DNA of 64,000 bases, taken from positions 1 to 64,000 of the forward strand of contig CADCDE010000006.1 of NCBI GenBank assembly GCA_902800065.1, given 5' to 3'. The notes below the pieces were generated by a model that worked only from the letters and a program-made list of their open reading frames with translations, was not told the DNA's origin and searched no databases. Both the position numbers and the translations under genes were made by a program. This DNA is from an uncultured Ruminococcus sp. (GTDB taxonomy: Bacteria; Bacillota; Clostridia; Oscillospirales; Acutalibacteraceae). Below, piece by piece: positions 5,462 to 12,911 of this stretch. Position 1 is the first letter of the stretch; every line of letters begins with the position of its first letter.

Positions 5462-6628
5462 TTATTTTTTCTCGATTACCTTGATAATTTTATTTTTGCA
5501 GAACGGACAAATGTAATTTTCATTGACAGCTCCTGTAATAGATGCACCGCATGATGGACAACTGTCCTTGACGATCTTCTTTTCCAATGATATTTTCATT
5601 TTACCGTCATGATTCTCTATTGTACAGTTTTTGATATAACCGTTTTGAATGGTTTTTCTCAATGATGCCGCATGATTTTTTCCTTTGAGAACGCTGAAAT
5701 TCAGCATTGGTTTATTGGAATGAATAAATGTATTATCGAAGCTCATGGCTTTCGACATCAGCAAGAGCTTTTTTAAGCAGAAAAATGCTATCAGAACAAA
5801 CATAAATGCAAAGAATATATCAAATAAGATAAAGTCTATTATGTGCTTTTGATTAAGTTCTATTGAACTGTAACCTTCTCCTGATAATACCAGTCCCAAA
5901 AGATATTCATGGTCATTATATTTTGCAGTATCGTATATTGTAAATCCGAACAGAATCAAAAAAGCAACAATTGCCAATGAAAGTGCCAATACACGACAGC
6001 CGAATTTTATCCAGAAATCCTTTTGCAGATAATATCCGGGTTTGTTTTTCTTTTCGGAGATATCTTTTTTGATACTGTATACCTGATTATCCGTTATGAC
6101 TGTTGCGAATATGTCTGATGTCTTGCAGTACGGGCATATACCCGCAAAATATATTTTCTTGTCTATCACTGCACCGCAGTTTTTACAGCTGCACTCAATG
6201 GTTTTACTGTACAGTTCAATGTGTTCATCTTCATTATCTCTGACAAATGAAAAGCGTTTCATATAAAAGTTTCTGAAAATATGCAGGTCACGCTTTACTT
6301 TATCGGCTTTGCAGCCTGTAACCTTTGAAAGTTCGTCATAGCTGATATCGCTGTAAAGTGCCGTTTCAAAATAGCTTGAATAGAAATGTGCTTTTTTTAG
6401 AGCTTCTCCCGAAATTTTCATACAGATAAGCAGAATACAGCCTATCATAAAATCAACTGCAGATTCAGGTGTCGAACGGGCGTGTATTATAGTGTCCCAA
6501 TCTCCCGAATAATATACTGTAAGAGATACTACATCCCACACCGCCATGATCGTAAGGAACAGTCCTGCCAAAAAGAACAGGACATTTTTGAATTTTAAAA
6601 CCAATATCCATTTTGACTTAAGATACAT
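5462..6628 (-). CDS. Membrane protein with two zinc ribbons, function unknown
   Basis: A 388-residue protein not recognised as a named family. Two N-terminal hydrophobic segments (about residues 10-30 and 57-75) are followed by a soluble part with a first zinc ribbon (CKNCG...CPYC, about residues 148-168), then two more membrane segments (about 210-235 and 265-290) and a C-terminal ribbon (CPSCG...CPFC, about 359-381). The ribbons probably bind zinc in the cytoplasm. Monocistronic: own promoter upstream and terminator downstream. The PP2C-like gene is divergent. A sensor or adaptor role is possible but not shown. Confidence 0.7.
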   Translation of the reverse strand: MYLKSKWILVLKFKNVLFFLAGLFLTIMAVWDVVSLTVYYSGDWDTIIHARSTPESAVDFMIGCILLICMKISGEALKKAHFYSSYFETALYSDISYDELSKVTGCKADKVKRDLHIFRNFYMKRFSFVRDNEDEHIELYSKTIECSCKNCGAVIDKKIYFAGICPYCKTSDIFATVITDNQVYSIKKDISEKKNKPGYYLQKDFWIKFGCRVLALSLAIVAFLILFGFTIYDTAKYNDHEYLLGLVLSGEGYSSIELNQKHIIDFILFDIFFAFMFVLIAFFCLKKLLLMSKAMSFDNTFIHSNKPMLNFSVLKGKNHAASLRKTIQNGYIKNCTIENHDGKMKISLEKKIVKDSCPSCGASITGAVNENYICPFCKNKIIKVIEKK

Positions 6629-9674: not shown

Positions 9675-10346
9675 TTAAAGTTGATTCTGGGGTTCAGTGT
9701 AGGGGAGGACTGCTATTTCAAGATTGCCGTTTTTTGTGCGGAGTTCGTCAATAAATTCTTTTTCTTCGCTTGGATCTTTCATTTGAATTTTGAAAGAAAG
9801 TCTGAACATTGAGCCCATACCTGTTGTTTTAACGCCTGCATTTTCCCAGTTTTTGAGATAGTGCTTGAAAGTATCGTCAAATGCACCTGAATATTCGAGT
9901 GATTCGGGAATGGTTATTCTGAGCAGTCTGTCTTCTGCCATGCTCTTGTGTTCAAATATGGGGAGGAGTGAGAGAATGAGGAAGATAACAGCCATGCCGA
10001 GAATTATTGCTATGCCGTAGCCGATATATCCCATTCCGAATGCGATACCTGCACCCATTGCAATGAGTATAGCGGCAATTTCATCAGAGCTGCCCTGAGC
10101 ACTTCTGAAACGGATAAGACTGAAAGCACCACCGATTGCAACACCTGCACCGATATTTCCCTTGACGAATGCGATAACTGCCGCAACCATGAAAGGAACT
10201 ATCGCTACTACCATGAAGAAGCGTTTTTTTGCACGGATTTTAAATGACATTATCCATGAATAGATAAAGCCTGAAACGATGGCTGAAAGTGCCATGATAA
10301 AGAATTGAGCCGCTGTTGGGGAGGTCGTAAAAATTGAGTCAAACAT
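9675..10346 (-). CDS. DUF4956 membrane protein
   Basis: A 223-residue protein with four to five membrane segments in the first 140 residues (including GNIGAGVAIGGAFSLIRFRS) and a C-terminal soluble alpha/beta domain, as in DUF4956. The start is the ATG of MFDSIFTTSP, with AAAGGA upstream; the longer frame would run into the VTC gene. The family is typically next to VTC-domain polyphosphate polymerase-like genes and has been suggested to be the membrane partner. It lies 19 bases after the VTC stop, in the same operon. Confidence 0.85.
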   Translation of the reverse strand: MFDSIFTTSPTAAQFFIMALSAIVSGFIYSWIMSFKIRAKKRFFMVVAIVPFMVAAVIAFVKGNIGAGVAIGGAFSLIRFRSAQGSSDEIAAILIAMGAGIAFGMGYIGYGIAIILGMAVIFLILSLLPIFEHKSMAEDRLLRITIPESLEYSGAFDDTFKHYLKNWENAGVKTTGMGSMFRLSFKIQMKDPSEEKEFIDELRTKNGNLEIAVLPYTEPQNQL

Positions 10347-10365
10347 AATAATATATCCTTTCTTT

Positions 10366-11079
10366 TCATAAATTTCTTGTTCGGAGAAGCTGCTGTCTGT
10401 AAGCCTCACCGTATTTTGAGAAACTGCCTTTGTATATTTTGCCTTTTGTAAGTATATCCGAAAGCCACAGCGGAACAGCCTGCTGTACCTTTACTTCAAG
10501 TATCGTGTAACCGTCTTTTAAAAGTGAATTTCCTTCCATTGAAACTCTCAGGTCAAGGTCTTCATATCTGTAACGGGGATTGTGGTCAATAGTCAGTCTT
10601 AAATCACCGTCAGGCTGAAAATATGCCACTCTGTCGTAGATTATCATACAAGCGGGTACAAGTGTTTGATAATAGTCACGAAAAGTTGTAATTTCCTTGT
10701 TTATCTGACCGCCTGCACATATATCGCCTTCACCGTCAAAGAATTTTTTAACGAGGGGGATAGTTGACTGCACACGTCTTTTGTAAACTATTCCGTAAGC
10801 CTTGCGTTTGAGTTCAAGGAATACAGGGGAATTGTCTGTTGCAATGCCGTAGGAACGGAGTCGTATTTTTTCCTTGAAGGGAGGTTTTTCGACTGATGTT
10901 CTTATAAGTCTGTAATTTGGTGTATCGTAGTAGAGAGAGGCTATTGAAGTGAGACCAAATTTATCTATTTTCATATAGCCTTTAACACTTTCCTTGAAAT
11001 ACTCTGTCTGTTCGGGGGACATGATATATTTCATTTCATATCTTTTCATTACCACAACGGGATTTGAAACAACTGCCAT
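10366..11079 (-). CDS. VTC-domain protein (polyphosphate polymerase-like)
   Basis: A 237-residue soluble protein made almost entirely of a VTC (CYTH-superfamily tunnel) domain. Visible are the basic KEKIRLRSYG strand, FLELKRKAYGIVYKRR, the acidic and basic strand TIDHNPRYR, and the ILEVKVQQAVPLWL end strand with the metal-binding Glu. In yeast Vtc4 this fold makes polyphosphate from ATP; the bacterial product is not proven. The start has AAAGGAGG. It follows the pseudo-kinase gene by 15 bases, pointing to co-transcription and a possible functional link. Confidence 0.85.
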   Translation of the reverse strand: MAVVSNPVVVMKRYEMKYIMSPEQTEYFKESVKGYMKIDKFGLTSIASLYYDTPNYRLIRTSVEKPPFKEKIRLRSYGIATDNSPVFLELKRKAYGIVYKRRVQSTIPLVKKFFDGEGDICAGGQINKEITTFRDYYQTLVPACMIIYDRVAYFQPDGDLRLTIDHNPRYRYEDLDLRVSMEGNSLLKDGYTILEVKVQQAVPLWLSDILTKGKIYKGSFSKYGEAYRQQLLRTRNL

Positions 11080-11094
11080 TTGTCACACCTCCTT

Positions 11095-12318
11095 TTACAG
11101 TGCTATTTCAAGCGTGAATATATTATCTTTGACGTTTGCTGAAACTCTGCCGTTATGTGCTTTTACGATATCCTTGACATAAGATAAACCGAGCCCGACA
11201 GTATTTTTATCCTTGGCATTTTCGAGAGTAGTGAATCTGTCGAATATCTGGTCAATACTTCCGTCAGCAAGACTTGTATCATTTGTCTGCAAAATTATTA
11301 TCCTGTCACCCTGTTTTTTAAGTGTGAATGATGCTTTTGTAAGGGAGTAATTTACGGCATTTTGAGTCAGCTCCAAAATTACTTTTCTTATCGCCTGTTC
11401 ATCGCATTTCAAATATATATCGGGTTCGATAGCAAATTCAAGTGAAATATTTTTTTCCTCGAATTTTGATTTTTGGATGTCGATTATTATATTGAACATA
11501 TTTGAAAGGTCTGTATTTGAGAGAGAAACGTCTGTTTCTTCAAATATCGAGAGTGCACCGAGATTTTTTACAAGCTCTGTCATTTTTCTGACCTGACGGT
11601 TGATAGCCTGTGTCTGGTCGTTTGAACCGTTTTTGCGTTCGATTATTTCTGTATTTGCGTTTATGACTGTAAGAGGCATTTTGAAATCCTGTTCAACGCT
11701 TGCAATGAATAGTTTTTGTTTTCTGTCAGCTTCCTCGAATTGCTTGAAAAGGGATTTGCCTACTCTGACAAGTACAAGATAGCTTATAAGAAGAACAAGG
11801 ACTTCACCGATAGCTGATATTATAAGGATTCTGTAAGAGGGGAGAAGTTCTCTGCCCTGGTCTATAACTGTTACATATGTTCGTTTATCATCTCTTTCAT
11901 AGACACGGTATCTGTATATCGTATCAGTCCAGCCTGTATCTTCGTTCAAAAGACTTCTTGCCAGTTCAACAGCTTCTTCTTCGGTAACTGCTGTCATTCT
12001 GTGTTCGATTTTTTCGGCATTGCCGTCCTTGTCGAATGCGTATGTGAAGTATCTTAAAGAGGCGTTCATTTCAGGGGAATTTATTCCCATAACTCCAGGT
12101 CCTTTATGCTGACCGCTGTTGACAGGTGTATCTGCGTTTTCCTCCTGAGGTTCTTTAAAGAACTTTACACGGTAATGTGAAATAGTATTTGTTATCCTGT
12201 CGGCATCCTCTGTGACCATCGTGAAGTTTATCACATTTATAACCGAAAGAAGTACTGTAAGCAGGATAAACACAGCTATTTCGGCATATAACACAAACTT
12301 TTTCCTTACTTTATTCAT
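11095..12318 (-). CDS. Degenerate membrane sensor histidine kinase lacking the phospho-acceptor His
   Basis: A 407-residue protein with the layout of an HK: membrane segments at about 10-33 and 161-185 enclosing an extracellular sensor domain, then a HisKA-like helix pair and an HATPase_c domain. The H box that should read SHELKTPL reads EQDFKMPL: Gln210 (codon CAG) replaces the His. The N box keeps Asn320 (ELTQNAVNYS) and the G2 box GLGL (375-378) is intact, but the G1 box DxGxG has become DTSLA (347-351). It cannot autophosphorylate by the normal route. It overlaps the upstream regulator gene by one base and precedes VTC and DUF4956. Confidence 0.88.
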   Translation of the reverse strand: MNKVRKKFVLYAEIAVFILLTVLLSVINVINFTMVTEDADRITNTISHYRVKFFKEPQEENADTPVNSGQHKGPGVMGINSPEMNASLRYFTYAFDKDGNAEKIEHRMTAVTEEEAVELARSLLNEDTGWTDTIYRYRVYERDDKRTYVTVIDQGRELLPSYRILIISAIGEVLVLLISYLVLVRVGKSLFKQFEEADRKQKLFIASVEQDFKMPLTVINANTEIIERKNGSNDQTQAINRQVRKMTELVKNLGALSIFEETDVSLSNTDLSNMFNIIIDIQKSKFEEKNISLEFAIEPDIYLKCDEQAIRKVILELTQNAVNYSLTKASFTLKKQGDRIIILQTNDTSLADGSIDQIFDRFTTLENAKDKNTVGLGLSYVKDIVKAHNGRVSANVKDNIFTLEIAL

Positions 12319-12911
12319 TATTCATCCACCAACCTGTATCCCTCATTTATCAAATATTTGATTCTGAGTTTTTTATTAAGTTTTTTGAATTTGTTGTTAA
12401 GAGAATTTATATAAACTCCCGAATGTTTTATATCAAGCTCACTTTTTGAGGATATTGCTTTTATTGTATTTATTTCCTCATTTGTAACTCGTATTTCATT
12501 GCAAAGGCTGAAATTTTTTTCATCTATCTCGATGTCGGAATATCTGAATACTTCGTCCGAATGACATTTTTTATAAATATCATCAAGCCTTGAAGAAAGT
12601 TCATTTGGCATAAATGGAAGTTTGATATAGGAATTTGCGATAATTTTTTCCGAAAGCATACCTGAATTTACTCTTTTTTCGAGTATGACAATTACGGGGA
12701 TATTATTTTCATTCAGTATTTTGAGAATATCCTTATAGTTTATGCGGGGGATATTTTCATTGAGAATGACCGAATCGAATTTTTTTCCTGTCAGCTTTGA
12801 TATTACCTGAGTACCGTCAAAGACAGTCTGTACGGTATTGTCAGAAAGCTCAAGGAGATTTTTGAAGGACATCAGAAAATCTCTGTCGGGGTCTGCTATG
12901 AGTATATTCAT
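12318..12911 (-). CDS. Atypical OmpR-like response regulator lacking the phospho-acceptor Asp
   Basis: A 197-residue protein with a receiver domain (1-115) and a winged-helix-like C-terminus (about 122-197, ending LRIKYLINEGYRLVD). In the receiver the acidic pocket D7/D9 is kept, but the phosphorylated Asp is Asn51 (VILNENIP, codon AAT), the Thr/Ser switch position is Leu77 and the Lys before Pro is Leu98 with a Lys one place earlier. So it belongs to the atypical, phosphorylation-independent regulators. It is first in an operon with an HK that has also lost its His. It may bind DNA constitutively or respond to protein contact. SD GGCGGTG precedes the ATG. Confidence 0.85.
   Translation of the reverse strand: MNILIADPDRDFLMSFKNLLELSDNTVQTVFDGTQVISKLTGKKFDSVILNENIPRINYKDILKILNENNIPVIVILEKRVNSGMLSEKIIANSYIKLPFMPNELSSRLDDIYKKCHSDEVFRYSDIEIDEKNFSLCNEIRVTNEEINTIKAISSKSELDIKHSGVYINSLNNKFKKLNKKLRIKYLINEGYRLVDE

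Follow-up and report, generated by a model that had tools for sequence, protein, structure and literature searches.

A co-encoded pseudo-histidine kinase and pseudo-response regulator beside VTC and DUF4956 genes in an uncultured Ruminococcus sp. and related Clostridia

Introduction

HisKA domains without the acceptor His and receivers without the acceptor Asp represent 0.9% and 2.0% of sampled sequences, respectively (PMC12632262). Only two of 20 characterised bacterial atypical regulators are non-orphan, and how pseudo-receivers switch in bacteria has been called a mystery (PMC12632262). On the kinase side, the closest described system is DivL of Caulobacter, which has a histidine kinase (HK) fold without kinase or phosphatase activity and binds a receiver via the normal docking surface (PMC4211667). 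On the side of the response regulator (RR), RitR, ChxR, CmrT, and FrzS have a receiver fold without a working phosphorylation site, the second metal-binding acidic residue, the switch Lys, and often the Asp having been lost (PMC12632262, PMC4395418, PMC5965902). Described here is a locus in which an HK and the RR encoded next to it are both without the residues for phosphotransfer, in an operon with genes for a VTC-domain protein and a DUF4956 membrane protein. It lies in a 64,000-nt stretch of DNA, hereafter the window, from an uncultured Ruminococcus sp. (GCA_902800065.1, contig CADCDE010000006.1). Polymerase and DUF4956 genes are also neighbours in streptococci and clostridia, among the CotH-polyphosphate polymerase-DUF4956-DUF4832 accessory genes beside pel clusters (PMC7112168). 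An original prediction for the locus had proposed that both partners had lost their phospho-acceptors and that their reading frames were kept by selection. Throughout, "dead" denotes the pairs of the window's clade and "active" the His-bearing related kinases and their regulators.

Locus organization

The gene order on the minus strand of the window is RR, HK, VTC, DUF4956, and Cthe_2159:

12318..12911, minus strand: pseudo-response regulator (RR), 197 aa; receiver (residues 1-116) and shortened OmpR-type winged helix (119-197)
11095..12318, minus strand: pseudo-histidine kinase (HK), 407 aa; first transmembrane segment (TM1), conserved extracytoplasmic domain, second transmembrane segment (TM2), DHp, and ATP-binding domain
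10366..11079, minus strand: VTC-domain protein (polyphosphate polymerase type)
9675..10346, minus strand: DUF4956 membrane protein, 223 aa
7918..9615, minus strand: Cthe_2159 carbohydrate-binding lipoprotein, the cluster's last gene in many relatives

Domain searches identified Response_reg in the RR (E 3.9e-9), and HATPase_c (E 2.5e-11) and HisKA (E 7.6e-6, slightly under the gathering score) in the HK. The VTC protein matched PF09359 (E 1e-41) with weak sequence similarity to the solved Vtc2 (E 0.097), and polyphosphate synthesis is its predicted activity. DUF4956 (E 1.8e-9) and Cthe_2159 (E 6.9e-69) were also matched, while none of the five cluster proteins matched an NCBIfam model above cut-off. 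The DUF4956 frame starts at a GTG (10409) in the open reading frame list; orthologues begin at the Met of MFDSIF (10346). The layout given in the original prediction was accurate, with intact frames, a one-base overlap of RR and HK at 12318, and 15 nt from the HK stop (11095) to the VTC start (11079).

Of the 160 relatives found in a scan of named genomes, 80 were retained, mostly metagenome-assembled genomes from the rumen or other ruminant guts named Ruminococcus, Lachnospiraceae, or Clostridia, and 90 distinct HKs were analyzed after duplicate removal. VTC lies directly downstream of the HK in 87 of the 90, at a median gap of 15 nt, the other three being contig ends or sequence gaps; the proposed tie of the pair to VTC-DUF4956 is thus upheld.

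Loss of phosphotransfer residues

The positions that define a working two-component pair are occupied in the window as follows:

11689..11691, minus strand: HK codon 210, CAG (Gln), at the H-box His position, in FIASVEQDFKMP
11677..11679, minus strand: HK codon 214 (Met), at the phosphatase Thr position (H+4)
12759..12761, minus strand: RR codon 51, AAT (Asn), at the phospho-acceptor Asp position, in VILNENIPRI
12618..12620, minus strand: RR codon 98 (Leu, in IKLPF), at the switch Lys position

The predicted substitutions were found on inspection of the codons (11691-11689 for Gln210), including loss of the switch Thr and Lys of the RR, whose positions hold Leu77 and Leu98; Pro8 occupies the second metal-binding acidic position. 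Conservation of the Gln and Asn among homologous pairs next to VTC-DUF4956 had been named as a check and was not observed. Position 210 of the HK is N24 K23 S15 Q11 R7 H4 T4 M1 A1, and position 51 of the RR is D32 N27 S12 E9 G3. As both positions vary freely, Gln and Asn as a new conserved chemistry are ruled out.

Both acceptor residues are missing from 47 of the 83 scorable pairs. Another 32 have the Asp without the His and 4 the His without the Asp, and no pair combines the two; the partner RR is without Asp for every one of the 4 HKs with His. With 4 His and 32 Asp among 83, no overlap is expected by chance with a probability of ~0.14, which is non-significant, and the missing His+Asp pairs were set aside as statistical evidence. 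Firmer evidence of broken phosphotransfer comes from three other residues. The switch Lys is found in 0/86 dead RRs, which have L, F, or Y in its place, compared with 21/21 active RRs, and only two dead RRs have an acidic residue at the second metal-binding position. The phosphatase Thr is present in 2/90 dead HKs compared with 24/24 active HKs, at a position (His+4) where Thr or Asn is required for HK phosphatase activity (PMC3510030); a phosphatase-only kinase is disfavoured by this loss.

No pair has the full canonical set of phosphotransfer residues, in agreement with the claim that the pair cannot run canonical phosphotransfer. The double loss is not local decay of one locus and, recurring in 90 distinct kinases, goes far beyond what chance would give. 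Relatives carrying His and Asp had been named as grounds for abandoning the claim: each residue does occur in some relatives, never the two together, and the His cases are considered secondary because the HK tree favours one loss and three reappearances.

The ATP site has been retained. The N, F, and G2 boxes are kept (N320 in 89/89; F359 and F362 in 88/88; G375 and G377 in 88/88), HATPase_c was matched in 66/66 HKs, and ATP binding by these proteins is predicted. The G1 box (NDTSLA) departs from the canonical DxGxG and had been read as damaged (DTSLA). Asn346 is present in all dead HKs, yet also in 23/24 His-bearing relatives, so this type of G1 box is ordinary for the kinase lineage and not diagnostic of death. 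Glu209, just before the His position, was gained as a conserved residue in dead HKs (76/90), and the residue after the His position is acidic (E/D) in 83/90. The window HK lacks the acceptor His and phosphatase Thr of a functional HisKA kinase and has the ATP-binding boxes; it is a pseudo-histidine kinase, an HK fold that has lost at least one catalytic function and is retained by selection.

Some phosphate chemistry might persist in another form, with a different residue of the receiver or kinase modified or with ATP hydrolysis by the pseudo-kinase driving a switch. The invariant ATP-site residues, the E/D after the His position, and Ser or other phosphorylatable residues at some acceptor positions would suit this very unlikely scenario. 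Against it, there is no conserved substitute acceptor, HK 210 being occupied by nine residue types and RR 51 by five, and an acyl phosphate would be without a switch even where the Asp stays because the Lys and the second acidic residue are lost almost everywhere.

The HK model (pLDDT 85.8) consists of TM1, a small alpha/beta extracytoplasmic domain, TM2 continuing into the DHp, and the ATP-binding domain. Conservation of the extracytoplasmic motif (SPEM..SLRYFT, GWT..YRYRVY, VTVIDQGREL) far exceeds that in active relatives. Foldseek matches of the model were HK catalytic folds, uninformative on the extracytoplasmic domain. The length of the extracytoplasmic linker differs widely among species; in one relative (L060, genome G055), TM1 of an otherwise ordinary dead HK is separated from the conserved sensor domain by a ~150-residue insert with repeated GEMPGGEPPQMPE-like units.

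Regulator structure

Two further features of the RR distinguish the dead pairs:

12879..12884, minus strand: RR Arg10-Asp11, beta1-alpha1, on the kinase-docking side
12321..12557, minus strand: C-terminal winged-helix remnant without helix alpha2

Arg10-Asp11 is present in 83/83 dead receivers and is unconserved in active relatives. The AlphaFold2 model of the RR (pLDDT 95.6) comprises the receiver and the winged-helix remnant, and Foldseek groups it with PrrA and other OmpR/PhoB regulators. Without Asp, the DD pair, Thr, and Lys, the set of a functional receiver, the window RR is a pseudo-receiver, a receiver fold devoid of catalytic residues. In the model, one helix instead of two lies ahead of the presumed recognition helix, alpha2 being missing, so that as modelled the window RR would not have the complete winged helix-turn-helix of OmpR/PhoB DNA-binding regulators. 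Full-length dead RRs have 96-103 residues past the PF motif, versus 116-130 in active RRs. The winged helix is retained in 68/84 dead RRs and deleted in 16/84, which end soon past the receiver.

It is quite unlikely that the pseudo-regulator is still a transcription factor that acts without phosphorylation, like RitR or ChxR, and is titrated by the pseudo-kinase. Phosphorylation-independent OmpR-type regulators are known (PMC4395418, PMC5965902), and the remnant in the 68 RRs folds confidently as OmpR type with a long presumed recognition helix. However, besides the missing helix in the model, the C-terminus is ~25 residues shorter in all dead RRs, Pfam Trans_reg_C matched 1/56 RRs, and the outright deletion requires as many as ten changes when mapped on the HK tree, with the receiver kept. 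The C-terminus is also less constrained than the receiver (omega 0.234 versus 0.063). Transcriptional control upstream of 12911, as originally envisaged, is accordingly disfavoured, the DNA-binding domain being shortened in every species or absent.

Selection, distribution, and origin

Both HK and RR are under purifying selection, as had been proposed. Comparison of the window with relative L051 (dS about 0.5-0.7) yielded an omega of 0.077 for the HK (DHp 0.047), 0.122 for the RR, and 0.026 for VTC, and reading frames are intact in nearly all of the 90 species. A decaying two-component remnant without current function is scarcely credible and already largely refuted. The freely drifting acceptor positions, and the loss of the pair but not of VTC-DUF4956 from a sister clade, would be consistent with decay. 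Simple decay had been named in advance as an outcome that would overturn the original prediction, and it was not what the low omega and the mostly intact copies indicate; the invariant ATP-site and extracytoplasmic motifs, the covariation at the docking surface (below), and a single ancient origin of the dead state also argue against it.

The RR-HK-VTC-DUF4956 arrangement is present in 48/64 genomes of the genus, including that of the window. Outside the genus, the dead pair occurs in further genera within the family (L095-L099, L101) and in a different family within the same class (L197). Cthe_2159 ends the cluster in 29/59 relatives with enough contig. VTC-DUF4956 occurs without adjacent two-component genes in L080-L084 and L105, which belong to the same VTC-DUF4956 clade as the dead-pair group. 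Since the dead pair was never seen away from VTC, while VTC-DUF4956 is found without the pair, the distribution fits a dedicated accessory regulator. The same-genus sister clade L080-L084 (genomes G058, G059, G061-G063) keeps VTC-DUF4956 with no neighbouring Cthe_2159 match. In L054 (G036) and L046 (G002) the VTC reading frame is in two pieces in the assembly, which could reflect an assembly error or a real break.

In an HK tree built without the H-box, a single clade on a long stem (SH-aLRT 100) holds all dead HKs. Four changes of the His state are required, best explained by a single loss after which His came back three times, and in the window's clade a single base separates Gln CAG from His. 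The Asp state changes 13 times on the tree. In relatives (the L107-L114 set), VTC-DUF4956-Cthe_2159 is flanked by active pairs that have His, Asp, and Lys and whose DNA-binding domain is complete, the active pair of L198 has an extracytoplasmic domain of the same type as the dead HKs, and dead and active pairs occur together in L098, L099, L157, L162, L169, L172, L183, and L187. For these reasons an active two-component pair beside VTC-DUF4956(-Cthe_2159) is the probable origin of the dead pair, with the exact sister blurred by the long stem. In a combined VTC and DUF4956 tree, the stem leading to the VTC-DUF4956 of the dead-pair group has full support and is very long (2.34) compared with VTCs beside active pairs, which suggests that the enzyme module and the signalling pair changed at roughly the same time. 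In seven relatives (L157, L162, L167, L169, L172, L183, L187), an active RR-HK lies near the dead block; in most cases it is upstream and separated from the block by a divergent Cthe_2159-like gene. Such an arrangement could be a tandem-duplication intermediate.

Two other window genes lie beyond the Cthe_2159 end of the cluster: a PP2C-type phosphatase gene (PF13672; 6942-7697, plus strand) and a gene for a membrane protein that has hydrophobic segments and two CxxC modules resembling zinc ribbons, without a confident family (5462-6628, minus strand).

Covariation at the docking surface

Surfaces at receiver alpha1/beta5-alpha5 and the DHp co-vary in working HK/RR pairs (PMC2991266). Among 81 HK/RR pairs, 14 of the top 50 inter-protein couplings fell at these surfaces versus 1.7 expected (circular-shift p 0.0016), and random HK/RR pairing placed a mean of 1.0 and a maximum of 4 of the top 50 there. 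The strongest couplings include RR 101 x HK 244, RR 101 x HK 251, and RR 15 x HK 208. The two proteins co-vary where DHp and receiver normally dock, and the docking surface has been maintained.

This result bears on the possibility that the pair serves to decoy or modulate some other two-component system that is active, with the pseudo-kinase heterodimerising with an active kinase or the pseudo-receiver competing for one. Such roles were proposed for pseudo-receivers in a 2025 review (PMC12632262), DivL is a pseudo-kinase of the same logic (PMC4211667), and an active pair adjoins the dead one in several lineages, including L098 and L099 and, within the genus, L061, L064, and L067. Nevertheless, most members of the genus, the window included, are without an active pair beside the dead one, and the closest active kinase of the window genome is 29% identical to the dead HK (residues 106-395). 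The mutual covariation at the docking surface is that expected of an exclusive pair, and the phosphatase residue is also lost; a decoy role is considered unlikely, though less so than retained transcription-factor activity.

Proposed function

With moderate confidence, the matched pseudo-kinase and pseudo-receiver are interpreted as a phosphorylation-free sensor-adaptor complex that works by protein contact, probably on VTC/DUF4956, the target that we infer. The transmembrane pseudo-kinase would sense an external cue via its strongly conserved extracytoplasmic domain, with ATP binding perhaps adding a cytoplasmic input. A change in the shape of the DHp helices would then keep the docked pseudo-receiver bound or let it go, with no phosphate transferred. 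The pseudo-receiver would act through protein-protein contact and not as a DNA-binding switch, and its likeliest target would be the co-encoded VTC/DUF4956 membrane module. A more specific version, in which the transmembrane complex directly gates the VTC/DUF4956 polyphosphate machine with zero phosphotransfer, is possible and is put forward tentatively; if true, a two-component system would have been wholly converted to a contact-based allosteric regulator.

Several observations weigh against the sensor-adaptor interpretation. The VTC-DUF4956 of the sister clade does without the pair, which is therefore not needed for it. The confidently folding remnant of most RRs may bind DNA or something else, and ATP binding by the HK is predicted from residues alone. 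When each HK was swapped for that of its nearest relative, 11 of the top 50 couplings still fell at the docking surface, so phylogeny is only partly controlled in this small set. In addition, the inter-protein covariation scan did not show coupling of HK or RR to VTC/DUF4956.

Comparison with known systems

The partner of DivL is DivK, a real phosphorylated receiver. Here the paired receiver is without phosphorylation chemistry and does not provide such a partner; it is itself dead, encoded next door, co-varying with the kinase, and located in a polyphosphate cluster. The pair differs from RitR, ChxR, CmrT, and FrzS in having a cognate kinase that is also dead and in having lost the output domain in 16 orthologues. 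Active pairs in related Oscillospiraceae and other Clostridia (L107, L110, L113, L114, L198) share the VTC-DUF4956-Cthe_2159 neighbourhood and are the probable ancestor type, but keep His, Asp, Lys, Thr, and the full OmpR DNA-binding domain. Unlike the genes beside pel clusters, the operon described here is without CotH, DUF4832, and pel, and an adjacent pseudo-two-component pair is not described in the available parts of that account (PMC7112168). In the open-access literature, no description was found of a matched dead pair or of VTC-DUF4956 with a two-component system, in line with the novelty originally suggested. Pseudo-kinases and pseudo-receivers are each known; here both partners are dead, co-encoded, and co-varying, and could be traced through 90 natural variants with a probable active ancestor type in relatives, which offers a clean test of whether HK-RR docking alone carries a signal and a first handle on the regulation of bacterial VTC/DUF4956.

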